Source: Pseudomonas mendocina (GTDB lineage Bacteria; Pseudomonadota; Gammaproteobacteria; Pseudomonadales; Pseudomonadaceae). Taken from it: a stretch of 64,000 bases of DNA. The translations under genes were made by a program, and so were the position numbers. Shown piece after piece: positions 9,707 through 52,333 of the stretch. Below the pieces are notes generated by a model. The model was given only the letters and a program-made list of their open reading frames with translations. It was not told the DNA's origin and made no database searches. Where the stretch lies: positions 620,001-684,000 of the forward strand of contig CP148074.1 in assembly GCA_037482215.1 (NCBI GenBank). The letters are read 5' to 3'. How positions within the stretch are numbered: the first letter of the stretch is position 1; every line of letters starts with the position of its first letter.

Positions 9707-9719
9707 GGCCCGCCAGTCG

Positions 9720-10199: not shown

Positions 10200-10246
10200 A
10201 ATGCCTCTCCTTGTTAGCTGTTGACCCGTTGTGACGCGCAAATGCG

Positions 10247-12042: not shown

Positions 12043-12257
12043 CTCGGAAACTCCAATGCTGCCTTTGCACGCGTGTCGTGGCGTTGTGGCCCATTAGAGA
12101 GGTGAAAATGTGATTAGGTTCTGTACGGAAGTCTCGAAGATGGCTGTTTAATGGCAAAAAAATGACTTTATGTCGATAAATAAATAGGAAAAGTCGTATT
12201 TTTGACCGTTTTGGAGCGATTTGGCCAAGGCAGCAAGCCAGCTGGTGCTGGGTGCGC

Positions 12258-13490: not shown

Positions 13491-13549
13491 GGTGTGTCCT
13501 CCGAAGTGCACAGGATAACGGCTTACGGAGGCACTTGCCTGCTGGTTGT

Positions 13550-13786: not shown

Positions 13787-13828
13787 GTGATTATCGGCGG
13801 GTTGTGCCTGGGCCTTGCTGCCAACCGA

Positions 13829-15394: not shown

Positions 15395-16662
15395 GACGCG
15401 ATCCTCCGCTGAAACAGATTGCGGAATACCGGGTAGATGTCGGCTGCAGAGACCAGCTGCTGCTGGGCGAATGAGTCGGAGAAAGCTTCGCTCACCCTTT
15501 CATACTCGTGCCACAAGGCCTGGTGCTCGCGTGGCGTGATTTCCACGTAGGTGAAGTACTGCACAAACGGCATGATCTGTTTAATCAGTATGTCCCGGCA
15601 TACGGGGGAGTCATCATTCCAGTTATCGCCGTCGGAGGCTTGGGCGGCATAGATATTCCATTCGGTGATGGGATAGCGCTCAGCCATGACCTCCTGCATT
15701 AGCTTCAGCGCGCTGGAAACGATTGTCCCGCCGGTCTCGCGGGAATAGAAAAACTCTTCTTCATCCACCTCACGGGCGCTGGTGTGATGGCGGATAAAGA
15801 CCACTTCGATTTTTTCGTAGTTACGCTGCAGGAACAGATACAGCAGGATGAAGAAGCGTTTTGCGATGTCCTTGGTTGATTGGGTCATCGAGCCGGACAC
15901 GTCCATCAGGCAGAACATCACAGCTTTCGAGCTGGGCGTTGGGTGCTTTACCAGCAGGTTGTACTTGAGGTCGAAGGTGTCGAGGAAAGGGATGCGGTTG
16001 ATCCGCGTGCGCAGTTTTTCGCACTCCTGCTCAAGCGCTTGAATGTCGTTGAGGTTGTCCGGCTCCTCGCGCAGCAGGCGCTCCAGCTCGGCTTTGGCCT
16101 GTTTGAGCTTCTGCCGGCTGCTGCCGGACAGGGCAATACGGCGGGCGTGGGCTGAGCGCAAGGTGCGGACGATATTGATGCGTGACGGGTTGCCTTCGTT
16201 GCTGATCCCTGCGCGTACGGTTTTGAAGGTGTCGCTGCCGGTCAGGTGGCGTTTTACTAAATTGGGCAGTTCGAGGTCCTCGAACATAAAGTCGAGAAAC
16301 TCTTCTTGAGTGATCTGGAAGACGAACTCATCCATGCCTTCGCCGGAATTGCTGGCTTGCCCGGCACCTTGCCCGCCGCCACCGCCCTGTGGCCTCGGAA
16401 TGTTCTCGCCTGCAGTGAATTCACGGTTACCGGGGTGAACTGTGGTTTGCCGGCCCCCCTGGCCATGGTGCAGCACGGGCTCGTCGATATCGCGCCCGGG
16501 AATGCTGATCTGCTCGCCGTGCTCCATATCCGTAATGGAGCGGCGGGTGACCGCTTCTTCCACGGCCTTTTTGATGTGCTCACGGTAACGCCGCAGGAAG
16601 CGCTGGCGGTTTACCGTGCTCTTATTCTTGCCATTTAGGCGACGGTCGATCACATGGCTCAT
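15391..16662 (-). CDS. yeaH: UPF0229 family protein YeaH (VWA domain)
   Basis: A 423-residue protein of the UPF0229/YeaH family. The C-terminal half carries a von Willebrand A-like domain with the MIDAS signature DxSGS in '[20 protein letters not shown]' (about residues 240-260). The N-terminal part is basic with a Gly-rich linker ('[20 protein letters not shown]', about 92-111). It probably forms a functional unit with the YeaG kinase and the SpoVR protein, which flank it in the same operon. It starts 72 bases after the yeaG stop, an interval that contains a strong hairpin (16698-16724). Confidence 0.93.
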
Positions 16663-16697
16663 ACCTGTCCTCCGTGCGCGGGTGCTGGCCGGTGAGG

Positions 16698-16724
16698 CGG
16701 TTCCGGCGTCCGGCGCCGGAACCG
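16698..16724. repeat. perfect intra-operon hairpin
   Basis: An 11-base perfect stem CGGTTCCGGCG / CGCCGGAACCG with a 5-base loop (TCCGG) lies between yeaG and yeaH. There is no following T run on either strand, so it is more likely an RNA-stabilising or processing element, or a REP-like unit, than a terminator. Confidence 0.6.
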
Positions 16725-16734
16725 TCAGGCCGCA

Positions 16735-18657
16735 TTACTGCGATTTGCGTACGCGCAGATACCACTCGGAAAGCAGGCGGACCTGCTTGTCGGTGTAGCC
16801 GCGTTCCACCATGCGTGTGACAAAGTCGTTGTGCTTCTGCTGATCTTCTTTGCTGGCCTTGGCGTTGAAGCTGATAACCGGCAGCAGGTCTTCGGTGTTG
16901 GAGAACATTTTCTTCTCGATCACCACCCGCAGTTTTTCGTAGCTCAGCCAGGACGGGTTCTTGCCGTTGTTGTTGGCGCGGGCGCGCAGGACGAAGTTGA
17001 CGATCTCGTTGCGGAAGTCTTTCGGGTTGCTGATGCCTGCCGGCTTCTCGATTTTCTCCAGCTCCTCGTTGAGGGCCATGCGGTTGAGGATCTCCCCGGT
17101 TTCCGGGTCGCGGTACTCCTGATCCTGAATCCAGAAGTCGGCGTACAGGACATAACGGTCGAAGATGTTTTGGCCGTATTCGCTGTAGGACTCCAGATAA
17201 GCGGTCTGGATTTCCTTGCCGATAAACTCGATGTAGCGCGGCGCCAGGTATTCCTTGATAAAGCGCAGGTAGCGCTCGCGGACTTCGGCCGGGAACTGTT
17301 CCTGTTCAATCTGCTGTTCCAGCACATACAACAGGTGTACAGGGTTGGCGGCGACTTCGTGGGGGTCGAAGTTGAACACTTTGGAGAGAATCTTGAAGGC
17401 GAAACGGGTCGACAGGCCGTTCATGCCCTCGTCGACACCGGCGCTGTCGCGGTATTCCTGAATCGACTTGGCTTTAGGGTCGGTGTCTTTCAGGTTCTCG
17501 CCGTCATAGACGCGCATTTTCGAGTAGAGGTTGGAGTTTTCCGGCTCTTTCAGGCGGCTGAGTACGGAGAACTGCGCCAGCATCTTCAAGGTGTCTGGTG
17601 CGCAATGGGCGTTGGCCAGGGAACTGTTGAGCAGCAGTTTGTCGTAGATTTTGATCTCATCCGACACGCGCAGGCAGTACGGCACTTTAACGATGTAAAT
17701 CCGGTCGATGAACGCCTCGTTGTTCTTGTTGTTGCGGAAACTGTGCCATTCCGATTCGTTAGAGTGGGCCAGCAGGATGCCGCTGTAGGGGATCGCGCCG
17801 AGGCCTTCGGTGCTGTTGTAGTTGCCTTCCTGGGTGGCAGTCAGCAGTGGATGCAGCACCTTGAGCGGCGCTTTAAACATCTCCACAAACTCCATCAGGC
17901 CTTGGTTGGCCCGGCACAGGGCGCCGGAGTAGCTGTAGGCGTCGGCATCGTTCTGTGGGAAGTCCTCAAGTTTGCGGATATCGACCTTGCCCACCAGCGC
18001 AGAGATGTCTTGGTTGTTCTCGTCTCCGGGCTCGGTTTTGGCCACGGCTATCTGGTTGAGAATCGACGGATACAGCTTAACCACGCGGAACTTGCTGATA
18101 TCGCCGCCGAACTCCTGCAAACGTTTGGTTGCCCACGGGGACATGATGCTGTTCAGATAGCGGCGAGGGATGCCGTAATCCTCTTCCAGAATCGTGCCGT
18201 CTTCAGCGTCGCTAAACAGCCCCAGTGGTGACTCAAAGACTGGCGAACCCTTGATGGCGTAGAAGGGCACTTTCTCAATGAGGTGTTTGAGCTTTTCCGC
18301 CAGCGAGGACTTACCACCACCGACCGGGCCGAGTAGGTAGAGAATCTGTTTCTTCTCTTCCAGCCCTTGGGCTGCATGGCGGAAGTAGGAGACGATCTGG
18401 TCGATGCATTCTTCCATGCCGTGGAAGTCGGCAAAGGCCGGGTAACGGCGAATCACCTTGTTGGAGAAAATTCGCGACAAGCGGGTGTCATGGGTTGTGT
18501 CGATTAGCTCAGGTTCGCCAATAGCCATCAACAATCGCTCGGCTGCCGAGGCGTAAGCGCTGGGATCGGTTTTGCACAGTTCGAGGTATTCCTGGAGGGA
18601 GAGTTCCTCCTGGCGGGTGGCTTCGAAACGTTGCTGGAAGTGGCTGAAGATGCTCAT
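16735..18657 (-). CDS. yeaG: PrkA-type serine protein kinase YeaG
   Basis: A 640-residue AAA+-like protein kinase of the PrkA family, associated in enterobacteria with stationary phase and nitrogen or oxidative stress. The N-terminal PrkA AAA domain has a Walker A 'LLGPVGGGKSSLAEKL' near residue 107. The C-terminal PrkA domain carries the kinase-like part ('NELVNFV'-type helices, 'KNPSWLSYEKLRVVIEKKMF'). It is the first gene of yeaG-yeaH-spoVR. The 289-base interval to glpE (18658-18946) should hold the promoter; I see no gene there. Confidence 0.95.
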   Translation of the reverse strand: MSIFSHFQQRFEATRQEELSLQEYLELCKTDPSAYASAAERLLMAIGEPELIDTTHDTRLSRIFSNKVIRRYPAFADFHGMEECIDQIVSYFRHAAQGLEEKKQILYLLGPVGGGKSSLAEKLKHLIEKVPFYAIKGSPVFESPLGLFSDAEDGTILEEDYGIPRRYLNSIMSPWATKRLQEFGGDISKFRVVKLYPSILNQIAVAKTEPGDENNQDISALVGKVDIRKLEDFPQNDADAYSYSGALCRANQGLMEFVEMFKAPLKVLHPLLTATQEGNYNSTEGLGAIPYSGILLAHSNESEWHSFRNNKNNEAFIDRIYIVKVPYCLRVSDEIKIYDKLLLNSSLANAHCAPDTLKMLAQFSVLSRLKEPENSNLYSKMRVYDGENLKDTDPKAKSIQEYRDSAGVDEGMNGLSTRFAFKILSKVFNFDPHEVAANPVHLLYVLEQQIEQEQFPAEVRERYLRFIKEYLAPRYIEFIGKEIQTAYLESYSEYGQNIFDRYVLYADFWIQDQEYRDPETGEILNRMALNEELEKIEKPAGISNPKDFRNEIVNFVLRARANNNGKNPSWLSYEKLRVVIEKKMFSNTEDLLPVISFNAKASKEDQQKHNDFVTRMVERGYTDKQVRLLSEWYLRVRKSQ

Positions 18658-39978: not shown

Positions 39979-41460
39979 ATGACCCGCGAAGAATTTCAGC
40001 GCCTAGCCGCAGAAGGCTATAACCGTATTCCTGTTGCCTGCGAATCCCTGGTGGATTTCGACACGCCGCTGTCCATTTATCTGAAGTTGGCCGACGAGCC
40101 CAACACCTACCTGCTTGAGTCTGTGCAAGGCGGGGAGAAGTGGGGGCGTTACTCGATCATCGGCCTGCCAGCCCGTACCGTGCTGCGTGCTCATGATCAT
40201 GATGTGCGCATCACCGTAGATGGCATCGAAACTGAACGCCACCAGTGCGAAGACCCATTGGCGTTCGTTGAGCAGTTCAAGGACCGCTACAAGGTCCCGA
40301 CCCTGTCGGGCTTGCCGCGCTTCAACGGTGGTTTGGTGGGCTACTTTGGTTACGACAGTGTGCGCTATGTCGAAACCAAACTGGCTGGTGGTGCAAACAC
40401 GGATACGCTGGGCACCCCAGACATCCTGCTGATGGTCTCGGACGCCGTCGTCGTATTCGATAACCTGGCCGGTAAGATGCACGCCATTGTGTTGGTAGAC
40501 CCGGCTGAAGACAACGCGTTGGAAAACGGCCAGGCGCGCTTGCAGGAAATCCTGCACAAGTTGCGTCAGCCGATCACGCCGCGCTTGGGTGTAGACCTGT
40601 CTGCCCCGCTGGCAGCGGAGCCGGATTTCGTGTCCAGCTTCAAGCGTGATGACTACGAAAACGCCGTCAAAGCGATTAAGGAGTACATCCTCGCCGGTGA
40701 CTGCATGCAGGTGGTGATTTCCCAGCGCATGTCGATCCCGTTCAAGGCAGCTCCAATCGACCTGTACCGTGCACTGCGTTGCATCAACCCGACGCCGTAC
40801 ATGTACTTCTTCAACTTCGGCGACTTCCATGTGGTTGGCAGCTCGCCGGAAGTGCTGGTTCGTCTGGAAGACGGCTTGGTCACCGTGCGTCCTATCGCAG
40901 GTACCCGTCCGCGCGGAGCCAACGAAGAGGCCGATCTGGCCTTGGAAGAAGATTTGCTGTCGGATGCCAAAGAGATCGCCGAGCACCTGATGCTGATCGA
41001 CTTGGGCCGCAACGATGTGGGCCGTGTTGCCAGCACCGGCAGCGTGAAAGTCACCGAGAAAATGGTGATTGAGCGTTATTCCAACGTGATGCACATCGTC
41101 TCCAACGTCACCGGCCAGCTCAAGCCTGAGTTGACTGCTATGGATGCGCTGCGAGCGATTCTCCCGGCGGGTACGCTTTCTGGTGCGCCGAAAATTCGCG
41201 CCATGGAAATCATCGACGAGCTGGAGCCGGTTAAGCGTGGCGTTTACGGCGGCGCTGTGGGCTATCTGGCCTGGAACGGCAACATGGACACCGCCATTGC
41301 CATCCGTACCGCCGTGATCAAAGACGGCGAGCTGCATGTGCAAGCGGGGGCCGGCATTGTGGCTGACTCGGTTCCGGCCTTGGAATGGGAAGAAACCCTG
41401 AACAAACGCCGCGCCATGTTCCGTGCTGTCGCACTGGCAGAACAGAGCATCAAGGGCTGA
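39979..41460 (+). CDS. trpE: anthranilate synthase component I
   Basis: Converts chorismate to anthranilate with ammonia supplied by TrpG. The 493-residue protein has the Trp-binding LLES motif near residue 48 ('[19 protein letters not shown]'), which makes feedback inhibition likely, and the C-terminal chorismate-binding domain with '[20 protein letters not shown]', '[15 protein letters not shown]' and '[20 protein letters not shown]'. It is separated from its partner genes trpGDC by about 10 kb. It ends 5 bases before the stop of the convergent LysR gene. Confidence 0.97.
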
Positions 41461-41464
41461 TCAC

Positions 41465-42379
41465 TTAGATCAGCGTTTGACGCCAGCGCTGTGCGGAAGT
41501 CTTCAACTGGTTTTTCAACCACTGATTGAAGGCTTCCACGCTCGGCCGCTGACTTTTCTCCGGCGTGCTGATCAAGTAATAGCCGCGCAGTGAATCAATG
41601 GCGATGTCGAAGGGGCTGACCAATAGCCCCTGAGCCAAGGCATCGCCGCTGAGCAAATTATCCCCCATAGCCACACCTTGCCCTGCAATACAGGCCGCTT
41701 GGGCGCAGTTGGCATCGTCAAACACCACACCACTGTGCTGTTCTAAATCCAGGTGCTTAGCCCGGGCGGCATTCAGCCAGACACGCCAGTCACTGTGATC
41801 ATTCATATGCAATAACGGGAAGCGGCTGAGGTCGTGTACGGATTTGAGCCCGCCCAACGCGTGGATCAGGCGCGGGCTGCATACCGGGAAGAAACGCAGC
41901 GGCACAATCGGCTCCACCTGCATGTTTGGCCAGTCGCCAATGCCGTAGGCAATAAACAGATCAGCCTGGCTATTGCTGACATCATCCGGGCTGCGCGGTG
42001 AGATCAGTTGCAGTTGTACCTGTGGAAACTGTCGAACAAAGTCGCCGATATGCTGACACAGCCAGTAACTGGCAAAGCCAGGGGGGCAACTAACGGTCAG
42101 TCGTCCGCCGACGCTAATGCTGTCGATACTTCGCCCCGCTTCTTCCAGTGCGTTGAGTATCCGGTGTACGTCTCGAGCATAGCGCTCACCCGCACTGGTC
42201 AGGACAATCCCTCGGCCCTGACGCTCAGTCAAGGTGAAGCCCAAGCTGTTTTCGAGGCTACTGATCTGGTGGCTGATGGCGCTGCGGGTCAGGCTTAACT
42301 CATCGGCTGCGGCAGAGACGCTGCCCAGCCGGGCAATGGCATCCAGTGCGCGCAGGGCGGTCATGGAGGGTAAGCGCAT
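41465..42379 (-). CDS. LysR-family regulator (GcvA-like) of the catabolic cluster
   Basis: A 304-residue LysR-type transcription factor. The winged helix-turn-helix is at about 5-65 ('MTALRALDAIARLGSVSAAA', 'LTRSAISHQISSLENSLGFT'), and the ligand-binding domain of the GcvA/AmpR type follows ('GGRLTVSCPPGFASYWL', 'PVCSPRLIHALGGL'). It is divergent from the amidohydrolase gene over 198 bases. A motif TATTTTCACCGA lies just upstream of it (42394-42405, minus orientation) and recurs before both forward transcription units, so it probably controls the cluster and itself. The inducer is unknown; an amino acid or guanidino compound is inferred. Confidence 0.88.
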   Translation of the reverse strand: MRLPSMTALRALDAIARLGSVSAAADELSLTRSAISHQISSLENSLGFTLTERQGRGIVLTSAGERYARDVHRILNALEEAGRSIDSISVGGRLTVSCPPGFASYWLCQHIGDFVRQFPQVQLQLISPRSPDDVSNSQADLFIAYGIGDWPNMQVEPIVPLRFFPVCSPRLIHALGGLKSVHDLSRFPLLHMNDHSDWRVWLNAARAKHLDLEQHSGVVFDDANCAQAACIAGQGVAMGDNLLSGDALAQGLLVSPFDIAIDSLRGYYLISTPEKSQRPSVEAFNQWLKNQLKTSAQRWRQTLI

Positions 42380-42393
42380 GGGCTCAAATCTGT

Positions 42394-42405
42394 TCGGTGA
42401 AAATA
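42394..42405 (-). promoter_or_regulatory. core motif copy C, upstream of LysR gene
   Basis: TATTTTCACCGA on the minus strand, 15 bases before the LysR start. It matches the core of the 33-base elements at 42429-42461 and 45297-45329 (TATCTCACCAA and TATTTCACCGA). Its position suggests autoregulation. Confidence 0.4.
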
Positions 42406-42428
42406 TCTGAACAGTAGCGACTAAATAA

Positions 42429-42461
42429 TTCGATTGTTGTGTGTTTTATCTCACCAATACT
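42429..42461 (+). promoter_or_regulatory. 33-base element A, upstream of amidohydrolase
   Basis: Begins TTCGATTGTTG and ends TCACCAATACT. It matches element B at 45297-45329 in 27 of 33 positions. It contains ATTG...CAAT as inverted half-sites and an ATACT that could be part of a -10 box. It lies 116 bases before the amidohydrolase start, in the divergent LysR-gene promoter region. Confidence 0.55.
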
Positions 42462-42577
42462 AGGCCCTAGAGCGCTTCGGTCTGGATGTGTTGAGCACTT
42501 CACGTTCCTGGCCGCAGCGCGTTGATCAATAGCGCTGTTGTGCCGTGACACAACGGCCTGTGCCGGTGAGGTATTCC

Positions 42578-44293
42578 ATGTCCGTATCCCACGCTTCGGC
42601 TTTGCCTGCCGATCTGCTGCTGATTAATGGCCGTATTTATACGGTTGAGGATCAGCACCCCTGGGCCGAAGCGGTGGCCGTACGCGATGGCCGCTTTGTG
42701 GCGGTGGGCAGTAACAGTGACGTGTTGATTTGGCAGGGGCCGAAGACCCAAGTGGTCGATCTGCGTGGACGTTTTGTGATGCCCGGCCTGTATGACATGC
42801 ACACCCATCCGGACTTGAAGCTAGCGCCGGGCTATGCCGGGTACTTGGACGTAGGCAGTGAAGACCCCACGGTCGAGCGGGTGGAGCAGGCCATTCTCGA
42901 CTACTGCGCAGAGCATCCCGGAGATGGCTGGGTGTACGGACAATACTTCGTGCGTTATCGCTTCAAGCAGGCGGGGTTGGTGCCGGGGCGCGAGTGGTTG
43001 GACTCCGTCGTAGCAGACCGCCCGGTGGCGATCCTCGATCGCTCCTGGGGCTGCATGATGGTCAACTCCAAAGCGCTGGAGCTGGCGGGGATTGATGCCG
43101 ATACGGTCGATCCGCGCCACGGCTATATCGAACGCGACAGTTTTAGCGGCGAGCCCACCGGCATTCTGGTGGATGGCGCCTATGCGCTGATTCACGCGGC
43201 AATGCCGCCGACGCCCCTGGCCGCATTGATTCGGGCCTACCGCGAAGGCGTCTGGCTACAGAGTTCGATGGGCGTGGTGGGCAGTAAATATGTGCATGTC
43301 TGCGAGCACCGCCTGAATGCTCTGCGGAGTATTGATCAGGCCGGTGAGTTGTCGGTGCGCATCGAAGCGGCGATCAGTTGGCAGGACGATATCTTCCCGG
43401 TGAAGCGCCGCTGGGAGTTGCTCAGCGGCGAGCGCCACTTCTATCGCAGTGCCCGCTTGAACGCCAACGCGGTGAAGTTCCACTTTGACGGCACCCATGA
43501 GTCGCGCTCCTCATTCCTGTCCAGCCCCTGGCCGGGCGAGCAGAGCTGGCGCGGCCACCTCAACCTGACCCCGGAGCATCTGCTGGACATGCTGGTGGAT
43601 ATGGATCGCCGGGGTATCCGGGTGATCGCCCACTGCACCGGTGATGGTGCATCGGATGTGTTCCTCAATGCAGTGGCCCTGACCCGGCAGATCAACGGCG
43701 AAAGCGGTGTGCGCCACCAGTGTGCTCACAGCACGACATTGCTCGATGCCAACCTCGGTCGTTTTGCTGAACTGAATGTGGTGGCGGAATTCTCACCGGT
43801 AGGTTGGTATCCCTCGGCATTTGCCAATGCCCGCAGCGTGTTCGGCGAACAGCGCATGCAGCGCGCTTATAACTTTAAGGGCGTGTTGGCGCACGGCGGG
43901 GTGGCGGTGATGGGTACCGACTGGCCTGTCTCCAGTATCAATCCGTGGATCGGTTTTGAGGCCATGCTGACCCGCGCCAACCCGTTCGGCGATGTGCCTG
44001 GGCATTTTTACGGCGAGCCCATCAGCCTTGAGCAGGCAATGCGAGTGATGACCATCAACGGTGCTTGGAGCATGGGCATAGAGCAGAGTGCGGGCTCAAT
44101 CAGAGTGGGTAAGTCAGCTGACCTGATTGTGCTGGACCGTGATCTGTTCAGTCAGCCGGCCCAGGGTTTTGTGCAGGCCACGCAGGTGGAGCTGACGCTG
44201 TTGGAAGGGCAGTTCACCTGGGATCGCCATGGCGAATTGGATGCCACACAACAGAGGGCGCTATGGCGCAAGGAGGTACCCGATGTTTTGTGA
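42578..44293 (+). CDS. amidohydrolase family 3 (YtcJ/NfdA-like) metal-dependent hydrolase
   Basis: A 571-residue protein of the amidohydrolase superfamily, type 3. The metal-binding HxH is at His75 and His77 ('LYDMHTHPD'); later ligands are likely the His in 'VIAHCTGDGASD' and 'RHQCAHSTTL', and the catalytic Asp in 'AVMGTDWPVSSINP'. The N- and C-terminal ends form the usual composite beta domain ('LLINGRIYTVEDQHPWAEAV', 'GKSADLIVLDRDLF'). Relatives include N-substituted formamide deformylases, so release of an amine from an N-acyl compound is possible. ATG 42578 (GTGAGG upstream) was chosen over GTG 42545. It overlaps the CobW-type GTPase gene by 11 bases. The substrate is not known. Confidence 0.82.
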   Translation: MSVSHASALPADLLLINGRIYTVEDQHPWAEAVAVRDGRFVAVGSNSDVLIWQGPKTQVVDLRGRFVMPGLYDMHTHPDLKLAPGYAGYLDVGSEDPTVERVEQAILDYCAEHPGDGWVYGQYFVRYRFKQAGLVPGREWLDSVVADRPVAILDRSWGCMMVNSKALELAGIDADTVDPRHGYIERDSFSGEPTGILVDGAYALIHAAMPPTPLAALIRAYREGVWLQSSMGVVGSKYVHVCEHRLNALRSIDQAGELSVRIEAAISWQDDIFPVKRRWELLSGERHFYRSARLNANAVKFHFDGTHESRSSFLSSPWPGEQSWRGHLNLTPEHLLDMLVDMDRRGIRVIAHCTGDGASDVFLNAVALTRQINGESGVRHQCAHSTTLLDANLGRFAELNVVAEFSPVGWYPSAFANARSVFGEQRMQRAYNFKGVLAHGGVAVMGTDWPVSSINPWIGFEAMLTRANPFGDVPGHFYGEPISLEQAMRVMTINGAWSMGIEQSAGSIRVGKSADLIVLDRDLFSQPAQGFVQATQVELTLLEGQFTWDRHGELDATQQRALWRKEVPDVL

Positions 44294-45278
44294 GGCGCGG
44301 ATACCGGAGTCGGTCTCTGTCACCTTGATTAGCGGATTTCTCGGTGCCGGAAAAACCACTTTGCTCAATCACCTGCTGACTCATGTACAGGGGCAACGCT
44401 TAGCGGTATTGGTGAATGATTTTGGCGCCATCAATATCGACAGTGAGCTGATTGTGCAGCAGAGCCAGAGCATGTTGACCCTGGCCAATGGCTGCATGTG
44501 TTGCACCATTGAAAGTGACCTGATTGCGCAGCTGGAAGAGTTGCTTGGCCCGGATGGGCCGCAGCCGGAGCGCTTGCTCATTGAGGCCAGCGGGCTGTCC
44601 AGCCCACAGAAAATTGCCAGCACCCTGCGTTATCCACAGTTCCGTCAGCGCCTGCACATCGACGCCATCATCACCTTGGTGGATGCAGAGCACTACGCCC
44701 AGCTGCCGGAATCCATGGCGGCGCTGGCGCAGGAGCAGTTGGACGTGGCGGACATCATCGTGCTGAACAAGGTTGATCGGGTTACATCCAGTCAACTAAG
44801 CCAGCTCAAGCAGCATTGGCTGTACCCCGGAGCACGCATCATCGAAAGTCGTTACGCCGCTGTAGCTCCGGAATTATTGCTGGGCTATGGCGGCAGTACG
44901 TTCGGCCGCTCGCTCAGGCCGGTTGCTTCATCTGTTCATGCCGAGCAGTTCGTTTCCCACAGCTTCGAGACGCCGCGTTTGTTTCGTCTGGCGCCCTTGC
45001 GTCGCCTATTACGGCGCCTGCCTGAAGGTATCTATAGAGCGAAAGGTGTCCTTCGGTTGGAGGGATATCCGGACCGGCGCTGCTTGTTGCATCTCGTAGG
45101 GATGCGCAGCGAGTTGACTTTGGATCGGCCAGCGCATGGCGTGCCTGAACACAGCCAACTGGTACTGATTGGATTGCGTGGGGCGATGGATCCCGAGCGC
45201 CTGAGAGCCAGTCTGTTGGGCTGTCTGGTGCCTGAAGTTACGCACGGTGAGCCGGTTGCAATTGGTGAATTTGACTAA
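44283..45278 (+). CDS. CobW/COG0523 family GTPase (metal chaperone type)
   Basis: A 331-residue G3E-family GTPase with Walker A 'LISGFLGAGKTTLLNHLL' (about 14-31), the metal-binding CxCC in 'ANGCMCCTIES' (about 64-74), 'LIEASGLSSP' and the guanine-specificity 'VLNKVDRV', followed by the CobW_C domain. Such proteins deliver or guard metals for partner enzymes. Start ATG 44283 has a perfect AAGGAGG seven bases upstream and lies inside the end of the amidohydrolase gene. That tight coupling suggests it services the metal site of the amidohydrolase. Confidence 0.88.
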   Translation: MFCEARIPESVSVTLISGFLGAGKTTLLNHLLTHVQGQRLAVLVNDFGAINIDSELIVQQSQSMLTLANGCMCCTIESDLIAQLEELLGPDGPQPERLLIEASGLSSPQKIASTLRYPQFRQRLHIDAIITLVDAEHYAQLPESMAALAQEQLDVADIIVLNKVDRVTSSQLSQLKQHWLYPGARIIESRYAAVAPELLLGYGGSTFGRSLRPVASSVHAEQFVSHSFETPRLFRLAPLRRLLRRLPEGIYRAKGVLRLEGYPDRRCLLHLVGMRSELTLDRPAHGVPEHSQLVLIGLRGAMDPERLRASLLGCLVPEVTHGEPVAIGEFD

Positions 45279-45296
45279 ACGATGAGGCGAATTCTT

Positions 45297-45329
45297 TTCG
45301 ATTGTTGCCGTTTTTATTTCACCGATACT
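45297..45329 (+). promoter_or_regulatory. 33-base element B, upstream of AruI-like gene
   Basis: Begins TTCGATTGTTG and ends TCACCGATACT, matching element A in 27 of 33 positions. It lies 76 bases before the AruI-like start in a 127-base gap after the GTPase gene, so it likely carries a second promoter of the same regulon. Confidence 0.55.
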
Positions 45330-45405
45330 GGCTGTGCAACGTAACGCTGGCTGGCCTGAAAAGCCCGAGCCAGAGCCTCTACGCAAACAATAATGAGGTG
45401 CGCGA

Positions 45406-47010
45406 ATGATCAGTTGTGCCCAAGCCCTGGTGAAATTGCTGGAAGCCTATGAGGTGGACTCGGTATTCGGCATCCCAGGCGTCCACACCCTTGAGTTGTA
45501 CCGGGCGCTGCATGGCAGCAGCTTGCGGCATGTCAGCCCCCGGCATGAGCAAGGTGCGGGTTTTATGGCTGACGGTTACGCACGGGTCAGTGGCAAGCCC
45601 GGGGTGTGCTTCATCATCACTGGGCCGGGTATGACCAATATTCTCACCGCGATGGGCCAAGCCTACGCGGACTCCATACCGATGCTGGTGATCTCAACCA
45701 GCTTGCGCCGCGAACATCAGCATCTGGGGCACGGCCACCTGCATGAAATGCCGAACCAACAGGCGCTGGTGGCGGGTGTTTGTGCGTTTAGCCATAGCGT
45801 TCAATGTCCGTCGCAGTTACCAGAGGTACTGGCCCGAGCCTTTGCCCTGTTCTCCTGTGATCGTCCGCGTCCAGTGCACATTGAAATTCCATTGGACGTG
45901 CTGGCCATGTCCGCCGCAAACATTGATCTCAAGCCGAGGGCATTGCCCAGACCTCCGCAACCGGCTGCGTTGGATTTGATCAAGGCCGTTGCACTGTTGG
46001 ATGAAAGTGAAAAACCGCTGATCCTCGCCGGAGGTGGTGCGCGCCATGTGGGGGCTCTGCTCGATGACTTGGCTATGCGATTGTGTGCCCCGGTGGCATT
46101 GACCACCAACGCCCGTGGTCTGCTGCCTATCGGTCACCCATTGCTATTAGATGGTGTTATGTCGGGTGCACATGGCCGCGAGTTACTGGATGAGGCCGAT
46201 GTGGTACTGGCTGTAGGCACTGAACTGGGAGAAACCGACTACGACTTTTTCGGTCATGGGCCTTTATCGTTCAAGGGCAAACTGATTCGTGTGGATATCG
46301 ACCCACAACAGGCGTTGGGATTGCATCCGGCAGATGTAAGCTTGGTCGGCGATGCGATGTCCGCCTTGCAGGTGCTGCTGAACTCGGTCGCCAATCACTC
46401 ACGAAGTGGTGAGTGGGCAATGTCATCCGTACGCCGTGTTAATACGGCAGAGCGCGAGAGCTGGACGCCTCGTCAACAGACTCTGCAAGCGGTGCTGAAC
46501 TGTCTGCGTGACGGTCTGCCGCAACCGGTGCTGGTGGGGGACTCCACTCAGCCCGTCTATCAAGGCGCCCTCGGTTACCGGGCATCGCAGGTTAATAGTT
46601 GGTTCAATGCGGGAACAGGATTTGGCACGTTGGGCTATGCCCTGCCAGCAGCCGTTGGCGCCAAGCTGGGAGCGCCAGAGCAGCAGGTGGTGGCGATCAT
46701 CGGCGATGGCGGCCTGCAGTTTTCCAGTGCTGAGTTGTTATCCGCGCGCGAGGCAGGCGTCGGCCTGCTGATTGTGCTCTGGAACAACCAGTGTTACGGC
46801 GAAATACGCGACTACATGCAGGCCCGGCAGGTGCCGCCGTTGGGCGTTGATATCCTGACTCCAGACTTTTCCGCGCTGGCAGCTGCTTATGGCATTCATT
46901 ACCACTGCCTGAACAACCTACCGCAATTACGCCAGTTACTGCCGCAGTTGGCCGCTACGGCTGACGTGCACCTGCTTGAACTATCAGCACAAGATTGGCT
47001 GGCGGCTTGA
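45406..47010 (+). CDS. aruI: ThDP-dependent 2-ketoarginine decarboxylase-like enzyme (AruI-like)
   Basis: A 534-residue thiamine-diphosphate enzyme of the acetolactate-synthase/benzoylformate-decarboxylase type. Catalytic Glu48 is in 'RHVSPRHEQGAGFMADGYAR'; the ThDP/Mg motif begins GDGG at 433-436 and ends 'IVLWNNQCYGE'. From memory the N-terminal third closely follows P. aeruginosa AruI, the 5-guanidino-2-oxopentanoate decarboxylase of the arginine transaminase pathway, which yields 4-guanidinobutyraldehyde. The AruH-like transaminase in the same operon supports this. A closely related 2-keto acid decarboxylase is the main alternative. ATG 45406 with GAGGTG upstream. Confidence 0.78.
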   Translation: MISCAQALVKLLEAYEVDSVFGIPGVHTLELYRALHGSSLRHVSPRHEQGAGFMADGYARVSGKPGVCFIITGPGMTNILTAMGQAYADSIPMLVISTSLRREHQHLGHGHLHEMPNQQALVAGVCAFSHSVQCPSQLPEVLARAFALFSCDRPRPVHIEIPLDVLAMSAANIDLKPRALPRPPQPAALDLIKAVALLDESEKPLILAGGGARHVGALLDDLAMRLCAPVALTTNARGLLPIGHPLLLDGVMSGAHGRELLDEADVVLAVGTELGETDYDFFGHGPLSFKGKLIRVDIDPQQALGLHPADVSLVGDAMSALQVLLNSVANHSRSGEWAMSSVRRVNTAERESWTPRQQTLQAVLNCLRDGLPQPVLVGDSTQPVYQGALGYRASQVNSWFNAGTGFGTLGYALPAAVGAKLGAPEQQVVAIIGDGGLQFSSAELLSAREAGVGLLIVLWNNQCYGEIRDYMQARQVPPLGVDILTPDFSALAAAYGIHYHCLNNLPQLRQLLPQLAATADVHLLELSAQDWLAA

Positions 47011-47052
47011 CCAGTCGCTGAGGCACTTCATCAAAAACAAGGAGACATGCCC

Positions 47053-47856
47053 ATGTCGCATCAAGCGAGTGTGGCTGCTGGCCCTTCGCCGGTGGTAGCG
47101 ATTGATGAGTTGCACAAAAATTACGGCGAGCACCATGTCCTCAAAGGGATTTCGCTGCGGGCCCATGAGGGGGATGTCGTGTCATTGATCGGCGCGAGCG
47201 GATCGGGCAAGAGCACGCTGTTGCGTTGCATCAACCTGCTGGAAATCCCCGATGCCGGGCGCATCTGCATCAACGGTGAAGAGGTTCGCTTAGGCCGCGA
47301 ACGCAATGGCACCCCGAAGATTCTCCAGCCGCGTCAGGTTGAGCGGCTGCGCACTCAACTGAGCATGGTCTTTCAGAGTTTTAACCTGTGGCCGCACCGC
47401 ACTGTGCTGGAGAATGTGATCGAAGCGCCTGTGTATGTGCTGGGTGAAAAACGTCAGGCGGCCATCGCTCACGCCGAGCATCTGCTGGAAAAAGTCGGCA
47501 TGGCCGACAAGCGCCACAGCTATCCGGCATTCCTATCGGGGGGGCAGCAACAACGAGTCGCCATTGCCCGTGCGCTGGCCATGCGCCCCAAAGTCATGCT
47601 GTTTGACGAGCCTACCTCTGCCCTGGACCCGGAAATGGTTGGTGAGGTGCTGAAGGTTATTCGCGGCATTGCCGAGGAGGGCTGCAGCATGATTCTGGTC
47701 ACTCACGAAATGGCCTTTGCCCGCGATGTTTCCAGCCATGTGGTGTACCTGCATCAGGGCGTGGTGGAAGAAGAGGGACCGCCACAGCAGGTGATGCTGG
47801 ACCCGCGCAGCGAGCGCTGCCGCCAGTTTGTGATGGCACAGGACAACCGCTGTTGA
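47053..47856 (+). CDS. polar amino-acid ABC transporter ATPase (HisP-like)
   Basis: A 267-residue ATPase with Walker A 'IGASGSGKSTLLRCIN', signature 'LSGGQQQRVAIARALAM', Walker B 'VMLFDEPTSALDPEMV' and switch His 'LVTHEMAFARDV'. This is the HisP/GlnQ/OccP type of histidine, arginine and opine importers. ATG 47053 is 8 bases after GGAG; the ATG at 47047 is too close to the ribosome site. It lies 42 bases after the AruI-like gene in an operon with the binding protein and two permeases. Specificity for arginine or a related guanidino compound is inferred from the AruI- and AruH-like enzymes on either side. Confidence 0.88.
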   Translation: MSHQASVAAGPSPVVAIDELHKNYGEHHVLKGISLRAHEGDVVSLIGASGSGKSTLLRCINLLEIPDAGRICINGEEVRLGRERNGTPKILQPRQVERLRTQLSMVFQSFNLWPHRTVLENVIEAPVYVLGEKRQAAIAHAEHLLEKVGMADKRHSYPAFLSGGQQQRVAIARALAMRPKVMLFDEPTSALDPEMVGEVLKVIRGIAEEGCSMILVTHEMAFARDVSSHVVYLHQGVVEEEGPPQQVMLDPRSERCRQFVMAQDNRC

Positions 47857-47892
47857 GGTGAGCGGCACACAACCACGGATGAGGAGGCAAGC

Positions 47893-48660
47893 ATGAACAG
47901 AAAACTTCTCAGCCTGCTCGGCAGCTGTTTGCTGATTAGCAGCCTGAATGTGGCGCATGCGGACGAGCAGTTGGTGTTCGCCATCGCACAGGAAGCGTAC
48001 CCGCCGTTTTCATACAAAAACGGGCATGGTCAGTGGAGTGGATTCGACCCGGATCTGATCACCGCCTTGTGCCGCCAATTGCACACTGAATGCAGCCTGC
48101 GGGAAATGGCCTGGGATGGACTGATCCCGGCCCTCAACTCTAAACAGGTGGATGTGGTGCTGAACTCCTTGTCGATCACCTCCGAGCGCAAGCAGGTGGT
48201 CGATTTCACCCGCCCCTATCTGCAAACCCCAGCCCTGTGGATAGGTGAGCGCGACGTGGCATTGCAGCTGACGCCCGACGGATTACGCGGCAAATCCATC
48301 GGCGTACAGGCATCTACCAGTCACGCGGCCTATATCAAAGCCAATTACCGCCAGGGCTCGCGCATTCGTTATTACAACAATCAGGACGACATCCTTGCTG
48401 ACCTGCGCAATGGCCGTATTGACGTGATGTTGGCCGACCAGATCTCCGTGCAGCCCATGCTGGCCCAGACCGATAACGCCGGACTGGAGGCCAAAGGCCT
48501 GGCTCCGCCTGACCCCTTGTTTGGCGAGGGCATCGGGGTCGCAGTGCGTAAAGGCAATGATGATCTGCGCCAACGCCTGAATCAGGCCCTCAATGCACTG
48601 GATCGCAACGGCAGTCTTGCCGGGTTACGCGCCAAGTACCTCGGCGTACTCATGGAATAA
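47893..48660 (+). CDS. periplasmic amino-acid-binding protein
   Basis: A 255-residue SBP_bac_3 protein with a signal peptide (MNRKLLSLLGSCLLISSLNV...AHA). The fold is of the Lys/Arg/Orn- and His-binding type ('VFAIAQEAYPPFSYKNGHGQ', 'SGFDPDLITALCRQL', 'VVLNSLSITSERKQVVDFTR'). The Cys pair near 58 and 64 resembles the disulfide of LAO-binding proteins. ATG 47893 has GAGGAGG upstream. Third gene of the AruI-like operon. The ligand is not proven. Confidence 0.87.
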   Translation: MNRKLLSLLGSCLLISSLNVAHADEQLVFAIAQEAYPPFSYKNGHGQWSGFDPDLITALCRQLHTECSLREMAWDGLIPALNSKQVDVVLNSLSITSERKQVVDFTRPYLQTPALWIGERDVALQLTPDGLRGKSIGVQASTSHAAYIKANYRQGSRIRYYNNQDDILADLRNGRIDVMLADQISVQPMLAQTDNAGLEAKGLAPPDPLFGEGIGVAVRKGNDDLRQRLNQALNALDRNGSLAGLRAKYLGVLME

Positions 48661-48695
48661 GTCAGGGCCCGGCAGCTCGGGCCAGAGGGATAAAT

Positions 48696-49409
48696 ATGAC
48701 GATTGCACAGTTGTATCAGCTGTTTTGGGCTGACGGTTGGTTGCAGGCGCTTGCCGAGGGGGCGACAAGGACGCTTGGCATCTCAATGGGGGCTTTTGCT
48801 TTGGGACTGCTGATTGGCCTGGTGGTGGCCATGATGAAACTGAAGGGGCCACGCTGGATGGTGTATTGGGCCAACGTGTACACCACGCTATACCGGGCAG
48901 TGCCTGAGCTGCTACTGATTCTGCTGCTGTATTTCGCCGGGGCAGACCTGATCAACAGCTTTATGGCGCTGATAGGGCAACCCAGTGTCGAGGTCAATGG
49001 CTTTGCGGCAGCCATCGTGATTCTCGGTGTTGTGCAGGGCGCCTACAGTGCCGAGATCATCCGCGGGGCGATTCAGGCTATTGCGCCGGGGCAAATTGAA
49101 GCGGCGCGTTCATTGGGAATGTCCCGTGTGTTGCTGCTCTGGCGGGTGCAACTGCCAAGCATGCTGCCATTTGCTGTGGCCGGGCTGTTTAACCTGTGGC
49201 TGGTGCTGGTTAAAGACAGTGCCTTGATCAGTGTGGTCGGTTATGGCGAGTTGCTTACGGCTGGTCGGCAAGCGGCGGCAACAACCAAGCACTACCTGAC
49301 CTTCTATCTTGCGGTTGCCCTGTTTTACTACGTCATCACCCTGTTCACCGGCGTGCTGTTGCGGCTCTGTGAGGCCCGCTTCGAGCGTTGGATGCCTCGG
49401 CACAGCTAG
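48696..49409 (+). CDS. amino-acid ABC transporter permease (HisQ-like)
   Basis: A 237-residue permease with about five membrane helices and the EAA loop 'EAARSLGMSRVLLLWRVQLP'. 'LYRAVPELLLILLLYFAGAD' is the usual early His/Glu-family permease motif. It starts at ATG 48696 (AGAGGG upstream) and is 12 bases before the second permease. Works with the HisP-like ATPase and the binding protein. Confidence 0.87.
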   Translation: MTIAQLYQLFWADGWLQALAEGATRTLGISMGAFALGLLIGLVVAMMKLKGPRWMVYWANVYTTLYRAVPELLLILLLYFAGADLINSFMALIGQPSVEVNGFAAAIVILGVVQGAYSAEIIRGAIQAIAPGQIEAARSLGMSRVLLLWRVQLPSMLPFAVAGLFNLWLVLVKDSALISVVGYGELLTAGRQAAATTKHYLTFYLAVALFYYVITLFTGVLLRLCEARFERWMPRHS

Positions 49410-49421
49410 GAGTAAATATCC

Positions 49422-50120
49422 ATGAACTTTTCTTGGTTCAATGAATTCAGCCCTGAGCTGGTGCAGGGGGCTTGGGTCACTGTGCAGCTGCTGCTGATCA
49501 GCGCAGTGATTGGTTTCTCACTGGCCCTGCTGGTGGCCTTTGCCCGCCTGTCCAGCTGTCTACCTGTAGCGTTGCTGGGACGTTTTTATGTCAGCGTGCT
49601 GCGTGGGACACCGTTGCTGGTACAGATATTCATCTTCTATTACGGCGTAGGCATGTTGTTGGCGGGTTGGCCCTGGTTACGCGCCAGTTGGTTGTGGCCG
49701 TATCTGCGTGAAGGCTTTTTCTACGTGGCAGTCGCCCTGAGCCTGAGCGTCTCGGCCTACGTCGGTGAGGTTCTGCGTGCGGGATTACGCGCTGTCCCCA
49801 AAGGCGAGCTTGAAGCCGCGCGGGCGTATGGCATGAGTCCGCTGATGGTGATTCGCCGCGTGTGGCTGGTACGGGCTCTGCAACAGCTGCGCCCGACCTT
49901 GGCCGGAGAGGCGGTGATGCTGCTCAAGTCCACTGCGCTTGCCTCAACTGTCGCCCTGATGGACCTGCTCGGCGCCGCCAACTTGGTCCGCGCACAAACC
50001 CTGAAAGTCTACGAACCGCTGCTGTTGGTGGCGGTGGTCTACATCGTTCTGGCATTCGCCATTGAGCAGTCAATCGCCCGTTTGGGACACAAGCCCCAGG
50101 CGCGGCCAAGGATGGATTAA
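49422..50120 (+). CDS. amino-acid ABC transporter permease (HisM-like)
   Basis: A 232-residue permease, pair of the preceding one, with the motif 'VSVLRGTPLLVQIFIFYYGV' and the EAA loop 'EAARAYGMSPLMVIRRVWLV'. ATG 49422 has AGGAG upstream. It is followed after 16 bases by the AruH-like gene, so uptake and catabolism are in one transcript. Confidence 0.87.
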   Translation: MNFSWFNEFSPELVQGAWVTVQLLLISAVIGFSLALLVAFARLSSCLPVALLGRFYVSVLRGTPLLVQIFIFYYGVGMLLAGWPWLRASWLWPYLREGFFYVAVALSLSVSAYVGEVLRAGLRAVPKGELEAARAYGMSPLMVIRRVWLVRALQQLRPTLAGEAVMLLKSTALASTVALMDLLGAANLVRAQTLKVYEPLLLVAVVYIVLAFAIEQSIARLGHKPQARPRMD

Positions 50121-50136
50121 GTCCAAGGAGATCGTT

Positions 50137-51330
50137 ATGCAGTATTCCTCTCTGGTAGAGCGCATTGCCGGTGAAAGCGTCAGCGCCTGGGACATTCACT
50201 ACGCAGCCTGCGAAGCCCAGGCCCGTGGCGAAGATGTCATTGTCCTGAGTATCGGCGACCCAGACTTTGCTACCGATGCCGCAATCTGTGATGCCGCTAT
50301 CCAAGGGCTGCGTGATGGCGATACCCATTACACACCGGTCACCGGGCGTTTGCCTCTGCGCGAGGCGATTGCGGCTAAGCAGCAGCGTTTGGCTGGCATC
50401 CCACTGACGGCTGATCAGGTCACGTTGGTGGCGGGCGCACAGAACGGCTTATACGCTACAGCCATGTGCCTGTTCGAAACGGGCGATGAGGTGCTGGTGC
50501 CTGAACCGATGTACCTCACCTATGCCGCCAGCATTCAGGCAAGTGGTGCCACGTTGATTCCGATCCCTCAGCCCAGTGCCGGTGATTTTCGCCTCACCGC
50601 AGAAGCGCTGGCAGCACTTATAACGCCACTGACACGTGGTATCGCTTTGGCTACGCCAAACAACCCGACGGGCAACGTTTATACCGCTGCTGAGTTGGAA
50701 GCGGTTGCTCAGTTGGCTCGCGAGCATGATCTGTGGGTACTGTCTGATGAAGTTTACGGACAGCTCACCTATGAGCAGTCGCACCAAAGCATTGCAGCGC
50801 TGCCCGGCATGGCCGAACGCACAGTGCTGATCAACAGCCTGTCGAAATCCCATGCCATGACCGGTTGGCGCGTTGGCTGGGTGGCGGGGCCAAAGGACCT
50901 GATCAGTCATCTGGATAACTTGCTGCTGTGTATGCTTTACGGCCTTCCTGGATTTATACAGAGTGCCGCACTCAAGGCTCTGGAGCTGGACGAAGCGATC
51001 GTCGGGCATGCCCGTGAGTTGTTCCGCCGCCGCCGCGACCTTGTTGTGCGAGCGCTGAGTGGTGTACCGCTGCTGCGCTACAAAGTGCCAGAGGCCGGTA
51101 TGTTTATGCTGTTGGATGTGCGTGGCACGGGCCTGACTAGTCAGCAGTTCGCTTGGGGGTTGTTCGAACATGGCGGTGTTTCGGTGCTGGATGCTGAAGC
51201 CTTTGGTGCCAGTTGCCGAGGGTTTGTGCGCTTGTCATTTACAGTCGATGACGGCGCACTGAGTGAGGCCTGTAAGCGAATTGCTGCGTATGTGGCGTGT
51301 TTGAGCGCTGCCGCCGAGGTTTGTCGCTAG
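50137..51330 (+). CDS. aruH: arginine:pyruvate transaminase-like enzyme (AruH-like)
   Basis: A 397-residue fold-type I PLP aminotransferase. The Schiff-base Lys237 is in 'LINSLSKSHAMTGWRVGWVA'; 'ALATPNNPTGNVY' and 'DEVYGQLTYE' give the cofactor Asn and Asp/Tyr. From memory it follows P. aeruginosa AruH closely in the N-terminus ('IAGESVSAWDIHYAACEAQA'), PLP loop and C-terminal part. AruH transfers the amino group of arginine to pyruvate, giving 2-ketoarginine for AruI. ATG 50137 has AAGGAG upstream; the longer frame from 50062 overlaps the permease. Last gene of the operon. Aspartate or aromatic transaminase activity is the alternative. Confidence 0.78.
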   Translation: MQYSSLVERIAGESVSAWDIHYAACEAQARGEDVIVLSIGDPDFATDAAICDAAIQGLRDGDTHYTPVTGRLPLREAIAAKQQRLAGIPLTADQVTLVAGAQNGLYATAMCLFETGDEVLVPEPMYLTYAASIQASGATLIPIPQPSAGDFRLTAEALAALITPLTRGIALATPNNPTGNVYTAAELEAVAQLAREHDLWVLSDEVYGQLTYEQSHQSIAALPGMAERTVLINSLSKSHAMTGWRVGWVAGPKDLISHLDNLLLCMLYGLPGFIQSAALKALELDEAIVGHARELFRRRRDLVVRALSGVPLLRYKVPEAGMFMLLDVRGTGLTSQQFAWGLFEHGGVSVLDAEAFGASCRGFVRLSFTVDDGALSEACKRIAAYVACLSAAAEVCR

Positions 51331-51739
51331 GGGAAAAAGCCATCGACTTGTTTTGTCGATGGGCGTTACAATCCGGGCAACTCTAGGCGCGGCGAATGCT
51401 GCGCCTGCAACTCTCAGGCTAGGTAACATGACCTCGACCGTGACGCTCAGTGTAAATCTGTGGTGGCGCTTCCATTAGGAAGCGGCGCGTCGTTGCGGTT
51501 CAAAACCCAACCCTGCCGCCATCATCGGCAAGCAGGTTTCAGGATTTACATAGCTCACCGGTGTGGCGGCTCCAACCCCTAGGAGAAGGCCACATGATCA
51601 CATTACTCCCCCAGCTGTACCGTTCGCTGCCAGGCACATGGCTGGCGGAGCGATGGCCTGTTTCCGCTGTTCTCACTAAGCGCTGCTCTATTCTGCTTAA
51701 TGCCCTGATTGACCTTAAAATCAAAAGGTTGGGATTGAT
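51331..51739 (+). promoter_or_regulatory. trpGDC promoter and leader region
   Basis: This 409-base interval holds an 8-base inverted repeat CCATCGAC / GTCGATGG (51340-51362, loop TTGTTTT), which could end the upstream operon or be an operator; TACAAT at 51367-51372 as a -10 candidate with a weak TCGACT 18 bases upstream; the Trp leader peptide (51428-51478) ending in a GCTTCC / GGAAGC hairpin (51468-51483); a TGCCG / CGGCA stem near 51521-51537; and a 51-codon open frame running into trpG. Confidence 0.6.
51428..51478 (+). CDS. trpL: trpGDC leader peptide with tandem Trp codons
   Basis: A 16-codon frame MTSTVTLSVNLWWRFH with adjacent Trp codons at 12 and 13, the classical attenuator layout. 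AGG lies 4 bases before the ATG. The hairpin GCTTCC ATTA GGAAGC (51468-51483) covers the stop codon. Attenuation of trpGDC has been described in P. putida, so low charged tRNA-Trp should raise read-through here. Confidence 0.78.
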   Translation: MTSTVTLSVNLWWRFH

Positions 51740-51749
51740 ATGCTGTTAA
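51594..51749 (+). CDS. 51-residue open frame coupled to trpG
   Basis: ATG 51594 is preceded by an excellent AGGAGAAGG, better than that of trpG. The frame ([20 protein letters not shown] and on) is amphipathic and basic, contains two Trp codons, and ends 10 bases inside trpG. Its overlap suggests that its translation feeds ribosomes to trpG. No known family is recognised. It may be a real small protein, a second leader, or a chance frame. Confidence 0.4.
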
Positions 51750-52333
51750 TGATCGATAACTACGACTCCTTTACCTACAACGTCGTGCAGTACCTCGGTG
51801 AGTTGGGCGCTGACGTTCATGTCATCCGCAACGACGAACTGACCATCGCTGAAATCGAAGCGCTCAAACCCGAACGCATTGTGGTCTCTCCTGGCCCTTG
51901 CACACCCACCGAGGCGGGCGTTTCTATCGAAGCAATCCTGCATTTTGCTGGCAAACTGCCGATTCTGGGCGTGTGCCTGGGCCACCAGAGCATTGGTCAG
52001 GCCTTTGGCGGCGATGTAGTGCGTGCGCGTCAGGCCATGCACGGTAAAACCAGCCCGGTATTCCATCGGGATCAGGGTGTGTTCACAGGCCTGAACAATC
52101 CGCTGACCGTCACTCGCTACCACTCACTCGTGGTTAAGCGTGAAACCCTGCCGGACTGTTTGGAAATCACCGCCTGGACTCAGCATGACGATGGTTCAGT
52201 GGATGAAATCATGGGCCTGCGCCACAAGACCCTCCACATCGAGGGCGTGCAGTTTCATCCAGAGTCGATCCTGACTGAGCAGGGCCACGAACTTTTTGCC
52301 AACTTTCTCAAACAACAAGGAGGCGTGCGCTGA
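51740..52333 (+). CDS. trpG: anthranilate synthase component II (glutamine amidotransferase)
   Basis: Supplies ammonia from glutamine to TrpE. The 197-residue class-I amidotransferase begins [20 protein letters not shown], has the nucleophile Cys in '[17 protein letters not shown]' (about residue 79) and the His-Glu pair in '[13 protein letters not shown]' (about 170-175). Its start overlaps the preceding small frame, and its stop overlaps trpD by one base (TGATG). First enzyme gene of trpGDC. Confidence 0.97.

Follow-up and report, generated by a model that had tools for sequence, protein, structure and literature searches.

A gene cluster between trpE and trpG of Pseudomonas mendocina combines the enzyme families of a possible salvage route for an arginine-type amino acid

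Several described systems bear on the DNA analyzed here. AruH is described as an arginine:pyruvate transaminase that also acts to some extent on other amino acids (PMC13387015), and proteins annotated like AotO as beta-Asp-Arg/beta-Asp-Lys dipeptidases (PMC10206079). Amide cleavage has also been described for YtcJ-type enzymes, namely epsilon-lysine acylases (PMC10699109) and taurine-conjugate hydrolases (preprint PMC13081902), and a GCMCC-type motif for CobW/COG0523 proteins (PMC2770081). Tailocins have been sought between mutS and cinA and between trpE and trpG, and the isolates of that study carried none at the trpE-trpG site (PMC8319346). Here, we analyzed 64,000 nt of Pseudomonas mendocina contig CP148074.1 (positions 620,001-684,000; G000:C1:620001-684000), referred to as the window and used for all coordinates unless stated, from a complete genome of 4.76 Mb (G000). 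Its trpE-trpG interval holds nine open genes (41465-51330): a LysR-family regulator on the minus strand, divergent from the remaining eight, which lie on the plus strand and encode a metallohydrolase (AmH), a CobW GTPase, a thiamine-diphosphate 2-keto-acid decarboxylase (TPP), a four-gene ATP-binding cassette (ABC) importer and an aminotransferase (AT). No paper joining these genes was found in the searches made of open-licence literature.

The enzyme families encoded in the cluster support, at the level of sequence, the general plan put forward in an earlier note on this DNA, that is, hydrolysis, transamination and decarboxylation. We tentatively favor LysR-controlled salvage of an arginine-type amino acid, which would probably be amide-linked. 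This reading, plausible though short of established, is preferred because the AT is 52% to AruH, the TPP scores over the NF005712 cut-off and the nearest solved relative of the binding protein binds arginine; because AmH co-occurs with a TPP of the same clade (clade A) in 31 genomes and M20 or AotO-like hydrolases join this core; because YtcJ-type enzymes described elsewhere cleave amides and an AruH-type AT is fused to an importer ATPase in other genomes; because genes of the DDAH/arginine-deiminase and carbamoylase families precede AmH-CobW on a Halioglobus plasmid; and because candidate genes for the later steps are present and two insert-free relatives, G014 and G109, are without an AruH-type protein (at E <= 1e-70).

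In the route that we infer, the LysR regulator would control a scavenging operon, the importer of which would take up a cationic compound with a free alpha-amino-acid group. This could be arginine itself or an amide of arginine or of a close relative, for example one acylated on the side chain or a conjugate resembling a dipeptide. AmH, as a two-metal enzyme, would open the amide, and the translationally coupled CobW would load AmH or keep it active. The AT would then convert arginine to 2-ketoarginine or a near analogue, and the TPP would decarboxylate 2-ketoarginine to 4-guanidinobutyraldehyde. Enzymes encoded around 0.5 Mb away (a candidate aldehyde dehydrogenase and a candidate guanidinobutyrase, both near a second NF005712 enzyme) could finish the conversion to gamma-aminobutyrate (GABA), urea and succinate. 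The nine genes and their order are as first described, with Pfam and NCBIfam matching the original naming (Table 1).

Table 1. Genes of the trpE-trpG interval and its flanks (window coordinates)
Feature	Coordinates	Strand	Family evidence or position
trpE	39979..41460	+	left flank of insertion
LysR-family regulator, GcvA-like	41465..42379	-	LysR_substrate, HTH_1; NF008352 272 bits, under cut-off 288
AmH, YtcJ-type Amidohydro_3 metallohydrolase	42545..44293	+	Amidohydro_3 258 bits vs. gathering score 29.7
CobW/COG0523 G3E GTPase, GCMCC (CxCC) motif	44283..45278	+	cobW 175 bits, CobW_C 59 bits
TPP, thiamine-diphosphate 2-keto-acid decarboxylase, clade A, NF005712 subfamily (5-guanidino-2-oxopentanoate decarboxylase)	45406..47010	+	746 bits vs. 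cut-off 500
Polar amino-acid ABC importer ATPase, HisP-like	47047..47856	+	Pfam/NCBIfam
Periplasmic binding protein, Lys/Arg/Orn type	47893..48660	+	SBP_bac_3; nearest solved relative 3tql
ABC permease A, ArtQ/HisQ-like (BPD)	48696..49409	+	NCBIfam
ABC permease B, HisM/ArtM-like (BPD)	49422..50120	+	NCBIfam
AT, AruH-type class I aminotransferase (Aminotran_1_2)	50137..51330	+	52% identity to P. aeruginosa PA7 AruH
trpG	51740..52333	+	right flank of insertion

In P. aeruginosa PA7 (G298), a 52% homologue of the AT adjoins a 47% homologue of the TPP, and we take these two genes to be aruH and aruI from the PAO1 gene order. The AT retains AruH-type sequence blocks end to end, and within the genome of the window the homologue that ranks next by score is at 30%. 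Against NF005712 (cut-off 500), AruI scored 790 bits and the window's TPP 746. In the phylogenetic trees, the window's AT formed a group with its counterparts in sister clusters (9 rows, 100/100) that excludes AruH. The TPP fell into a clade of 7 rows (100/100) that does not include AruI, the AruI pair lying outside the other 30 rows. The trees were midpoint-rooted with long-branched deep placements, and what we claim from them is separate clades and not branching order. Judged by these comparisons, the AT and TPP belong to the AruH and AruI families, in the same subfamilies, and are not their orthologues, so that the earlier description of AruH- and AruI-like enzymes stands at the level of family. 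The family annotated as '5-guanidino-2-oxopentanoate decarboxylase' splits into several clades, maybe differing in substrate. A specific link of the AT to GntC, its top NCBIfam model, was considered and rejected, as the match lies below cut-off and AruH scores likewise (295.7 vs. 316.6 bits).

The transporter is by family a polar amino-acid ABC importer, as initially proposed, and its sequence suggests the cationic-amino-acid type. By sequence, the nearest solved relative of the binding protein is an arginine-binding protein (3tql), and its assignment to the Lys/Arg/Orn type holds at family level only, with TIGR01096 at 203.6 bits under a cut-off of 256. The Arg and Asp residues expected, as in the Lys/Arg/Orn-binding protein, to hold the alpha-carboxylate and alpha-amino groups, respectively, were kept in 13/13 aligned rows. 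Nopaline-binding proteins, the ligand of which is substituted on the alpha nitrogen, have Ser in that Asp column, and a simple alpha-N-acyl substrate is therefore less likely. The earlier note had envisaged removal of an N-substituent by the amidohydrolase, and for a substituent on the alpha nitrogen this also becomes less likely. The ligand is more probably an unconjugated amino acid, one conjugated through its side chain, or a dipeptide whose N-terminus is free, the acyl group, if any, probably not being on the alpha nitrogen.

A link between transport and transamination was supported by fusions of an AruH-type AT to a HisP-type ATPase. Of 20 genomes searched, 11 encode a 56-58% AT within an open frame 680-742 codons long, and in all three such frames translated (L226, L227 and L230; G246, G204 and G275) it was fused to the ATPase. 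Downstream of the fusion, the three regions read (L232-L234, two of them from translated genomes) all carry genes for a binding protein and two permeases, followed by a DMT-like gene and one for an AstE/AspA-like protein, the last of these 28-31% to the AotO-like protein treated below. On an Agrobacterium rubi plasmid (NZ_CP049208.1), an annotated 2 kb aminotransferase gene is followed by genes for a binding protein, permeases and a DMT transporter.

The same plan might instead serve another basic or polar amino acid, such as histidine, lysine, ornithine or a modified form (e.g., hydroxylated arginine). In line with this, the importer subunits match models for histidine, lysine/arginine/ornithine, glutamine, cystine and ectoine transport, none of the specific models reaching its cut-off; the AT and TPP clades differ from those of AruH and AruI; sister loci carry a class II aldolase and a PotD-type importer; and another NF005712 enzyme is already encoded elsewhere in the genome. 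However, AruH-type blocks are kept throughout the AT, and the AotO-like and DDAH/arginine-deiminase-like neighbors found at related loci point to arginine chemistry. We consider this alternative unlikely.

With regard to the hydrolase, the likely start of AmH is the ATG at 42578, and the end of its frame overlaps the beginning of CobW (stop at 44293, start at 44283). Candidate metal ligands H75, H77, K300, H352, H384 and D448 (P0001 numbering), with roles assigned from superfamily knowledge, were invariant in 20/20 aligned AmH sequences, including that of the window. The protein is strongly conserved, with 1124 matches at E <= 1e-60 among 7999 candidates scored, the best 120 all being at least 64%, and it is 31% to a protein annotated nfdA. 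CobW adjoins AmH in all 35 AmH loci read within the genus, and this adjacency, together with the gene overlap, suggests that CobW may deliver metal to AmH. Zur control of AmH-CobW was considered and rejected, as the window is without a Zur-like box at up to 3 mismatches from the consensus used.

Further amide hydrolases accompany the same core, an M20 protein being encoded at its loci in 8 genomes and an AotO-like protein in 6. The M20 protein matched TIGR01891 alone, below cut-off, and no Pfam family at 1e-5. The AotO-like protein belongs to AstE_AspA_cat and is 41% to a PA7 gene lying among importer genes, presumably the aot operon, judging by the gene order. No AotO-like protein was detected in the window's genome at E <= 1e-5.

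The distribution of the kit was determined in 298 genomes of the genus, where the AmH class was set at 61% or more (next match 36%) and the clade-A TPP class at 67% or more (next match 56%). AmH was present in 34 genomes and clade-A TPP in 32, with both in 31 (Fisher p 1.6e-37, a value inflated by kinship). AmH occurred without clade-A TPP in G041, G042 and G060, and TPP without AmH in G223, a genome 73% complete. Architectures were counted by tblastn, since open reading frame (ORF) calls are often antisense in GC-rich DNA. In 14 genomes, TPP, AT, polar importer, AmH and CobW lie in one region (in G191, AmH is in two pieces around 36 kb apart). Another 11 combine a PotD-type importer, LysR, TPP, AmH and CobW, with a class II aldolase in 10/11 and the locus of G232 split over two contigs; AruH-family proteins of other kinds (49-58%) are present in these genomes. 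The remaining 6 have a PotD-type locus that lacks TPP and, elsewhere, a second locus encoding an AotO-like protein, TPP, M20, polar importer and AT (importer part incomplete in G021), AmH and clade-A TPP thus standing at separate loci in 6 of the 31 genomes. In most of the other loci read, a LysR homologue (61-69%) stands close to clade-A TPP or to AmH. Nine named loci (L036-L044) show the same types, although they duplicate genomes already counted and are not independent. The cluster is hence neither unique nor restricted to one site or genome: the kit is conserved and modular, being rearranged, served by different importers and supplemented with extra amide hydrolases.

In G041, G042 and G060 (L117-L119), AmH (76-79%) and CobW are accompanied by a Gate-domain permease, a class II aldolase and a second NF005712 enzyme. 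In G060, a short ORF beside this locus resembles, by eye, an aminotransferase remnant.

Outside the genus, 390 genomes of the order yielded seven further AmH loci, three of them from one genus of the same family. CobW adjoins AmH in six of the seven and lies around 6 kb off in the seventh (L255). A regulator-like gene is the sole neighbor of AmH-CobW at the three same-family loci, and aminotransferase- or aldehyde-dehydrogenase-like genes lie within 10 kb at three loci of other families (by eye, save two aldehyde dehydrogenase matches). At class level (E <= 1e-180), AmH was found in one of 369 genomes, the window's own. Ten plasmid records carry AmH relatives, one at 69% and nine below 35%, and no viral contig carrying AmH was confirmed. 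On the Halioglobus plasmid CP019045.1 (L236, 5559-11681), genes of the DDAH/arginine-deiminase, carbamoylase and MFS families are followed by AmH (68%) and CobW (45%). In Pararhizobium sp. YC-54 (L101), an M20 protein (57%) occurs with LysR, a PotD-type importer and TPP, and AmH is absent from the locus. Two further arrangements were observed. At L255 (G1004, 6788-17392), AmH and an NF005712-like decarboxylase stand in tandem, with M20, TRAP-like genes (by eye) and CobW nearby. The Pararhizobium conjugative plasmid NZ_CP119569.1 (L240, 426-10817) carries a polar importer, argE, LysR, an aldehyde dehydrogenase, a 45% AT and a succinate-semialdehyde dehydrogenase adjoining traR, an assemblage that recalls opine catabolism.

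Some of these results weigh against the favored salvage route. G041, G042 and G060 have AmH alone, and G041 is also without an AruH-type protein at E <= 1e-70; the AT and polar importer are absent from the stretch read in the 11 PotD-type genomes of the 31; clade-A TPP and AT stand without AmH at 6 loci; TPP and M20 accompany AmH in L255 only among the seven loci outside the genus, so that AmH-CobW also exists independently of the kit; and the AT and TPP form clades separate from AruH and AruI. The cluster might instead be a simple arginine transaminase route equipped with an importer, AmH-CobW being a passenger that acts on another compound; in line with this, TPP is absent from six of those seven loci. 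The AT, TPP and importer suffice for arginine, the binding protein looks suited to a free amino acid, and the insert-free relatives are without AruH-type enzymes. Nevertheless, AmH and clade-A TPP occur together in 31 genomes, including the 6 in which they occupy separate loci, and at L255, a distant locus from within the order, AmH is once more combined with an NF005712-like TPP and M20. We regard the passenger explanation as decidedly unlikely.

A different order of steps was also weighed, in which AmH would act after the decarboxylase on a cyclized or guanidino product, by ring opening or guanidino removal. AmH is tied to TPP (31/32 clade-A TPP genomes) more than to the importer or the AT, and both the DDAH/arginine-deiminase- and carbamoylase-family genes of the Halioglobus plasmid and the aminotransferase- and aldehyde-dehydrogenase-like genes at the three other-family loci would fit such a role. 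However, the YtcJ-type enzymes described in PMC10699109 and PMC13081902 cleave linear amides, and the Pararhizobium locus L101 has an M20 hydrolase and no AmH-CobW. We consider this order very improbable.

Returning to the salvage route, we searched the same genome for its later enzymes. The observation that an aldehyde dehydrogenase and a guanidinobutyrase are not in the window was correct, and candidates for both are present elsewhere in the genome. At 137 kb, approximately 0.5 Mb from the cluster, lies the second NF005712 enzyme (860 bits, 51-52% to the first). A PF00491 ureohydrolase (316 bits; G000:C1:133488-134306) is 91% to its PA7 counterpart, which we take to be gbuA. The stretch with the second TPP also holds two transporter-like genes and an aldehyde-dehydrogenase-like gene, and is preceded by gabD- and gabT-like genes (by eye). 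The 'missing' steps could therefore be supplied by the ureohydrolase and aldehyde-dehydrogenase-like genes near the second TPP.

Comparison of the trpE-trpG interval across Pseudomonas confirmed the suggestion of an insertion hotspot, empty in close relatives and with varied cargo elsewhere. In the relatives G014, G109 and G075 (trpE 92-93% identical), the trpE-trpD gap is 626-644 bases, which fits trpG only, and in G014 and G109, the DNA of which was read, trpG starts around 11-12 bp past the trpE stop. Among 139 genomes searched, trpE was found in 136 and trpD in 137, with both on one contig and strand in 134. Across these 134, the gap (trpG included) ranged from 0.6 to 24 kb: 49 genomes have less than 0.8 kb, 2 have 0.8-2 kb, 74 have 2-5 kb and 9, the window's among them, have 8-24 kb. 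Eleven other gaps were fetched (two empty, one of the 74 and eight other large ones, the two largest in part only). By eye, five of the nine filled gaps contain an autotransporter-esterase-like gene, joined in one by a polysaccharide set, in one by sugar and binding-protein genes and in two by phage-tail-like genes; four of the nine contain 5-oxoprolinase-like genes, with phage-like genes too in one of the four. The window's gap holds the nine named genes only, with no phage-tail genes. The trpE-trpG interval is a variable insertion site, and published work has dealt with it as a site for tailocins (PMC8319346).

GC content per gene was 57-61% in the cluster, close to the 56-59% of trpE, trpG and trpD. 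The 409 bp spacer between the cluster and trpG (51331-51739) has no named gene and, among the loci compared, showed similarity only to the window's own genome. No Rfam family matched within 41300-51900 at E <= 1. A simple promoter scan gave 1 site vs. 4.2 in shuffles, and a terminator scan 9 vs. 8.8.

A bolder extension is possible if doubtful: AmH-CobW, sometimes with M20, might be a metal-dependent hydrolase of a kind not yet described, acting on a naturally occurring conjugate of arginine (side-chain-acylated or dipeptide-like) and feeding a dedicated decarboxylation route, while the kit recurs with four or more types of transporter (polar ABC, PotD-type ABC, Gate-domain permease and TRAP). 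Such a range of transporters would, if this were true, reveal a common but unrecognized nutrient. Should the favored salvage reading be right, many Pseudomonas would carry a movable kit for an unnamed arginine-type nutrient, the strongly conserved AmH, a YtcJ-type enzyme, would gain a testable function together with CobW, and the recurrence of arginine-transamination genes beside importers and amide hydrolases would be explained.

Compared with the arginine transaminase (ATA) pathway of P. aeruginosa (aruIH), the cluster and its genome share an AruH-family transaminase, an NF005712-family decarboxylase and a guanidinobutyrase-like gene, whereas the cluster adds its own importer, LysR regulator, amidohydrolase and CobW, and its enzymes fall into separate clades. 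The aot operon with AotO/CphZ, a cyanophycin dipeptide hydrolase, likewise pairs a polar amino-acid importer with an amide hydrolase, and six sister clusters carry an AotO homologue; the window's operon uses a YtcJ-type amidohydrolase instead and adds catabolic enzymes. AmH shares its Pfam family with the YtcJ-type epsilon-lysine acylase, the taurine-conjugate hydrolase BwBSH1 and NfdA (the first two likened by description, nfdA by sequence) and keeps the candidate metal ligands, but is coupled to a CobW GTPase. Finally, the cluster occupies the same place as the trpE-trpG tailocin (R/F pyocin) site, with a cargo that is catabolic.

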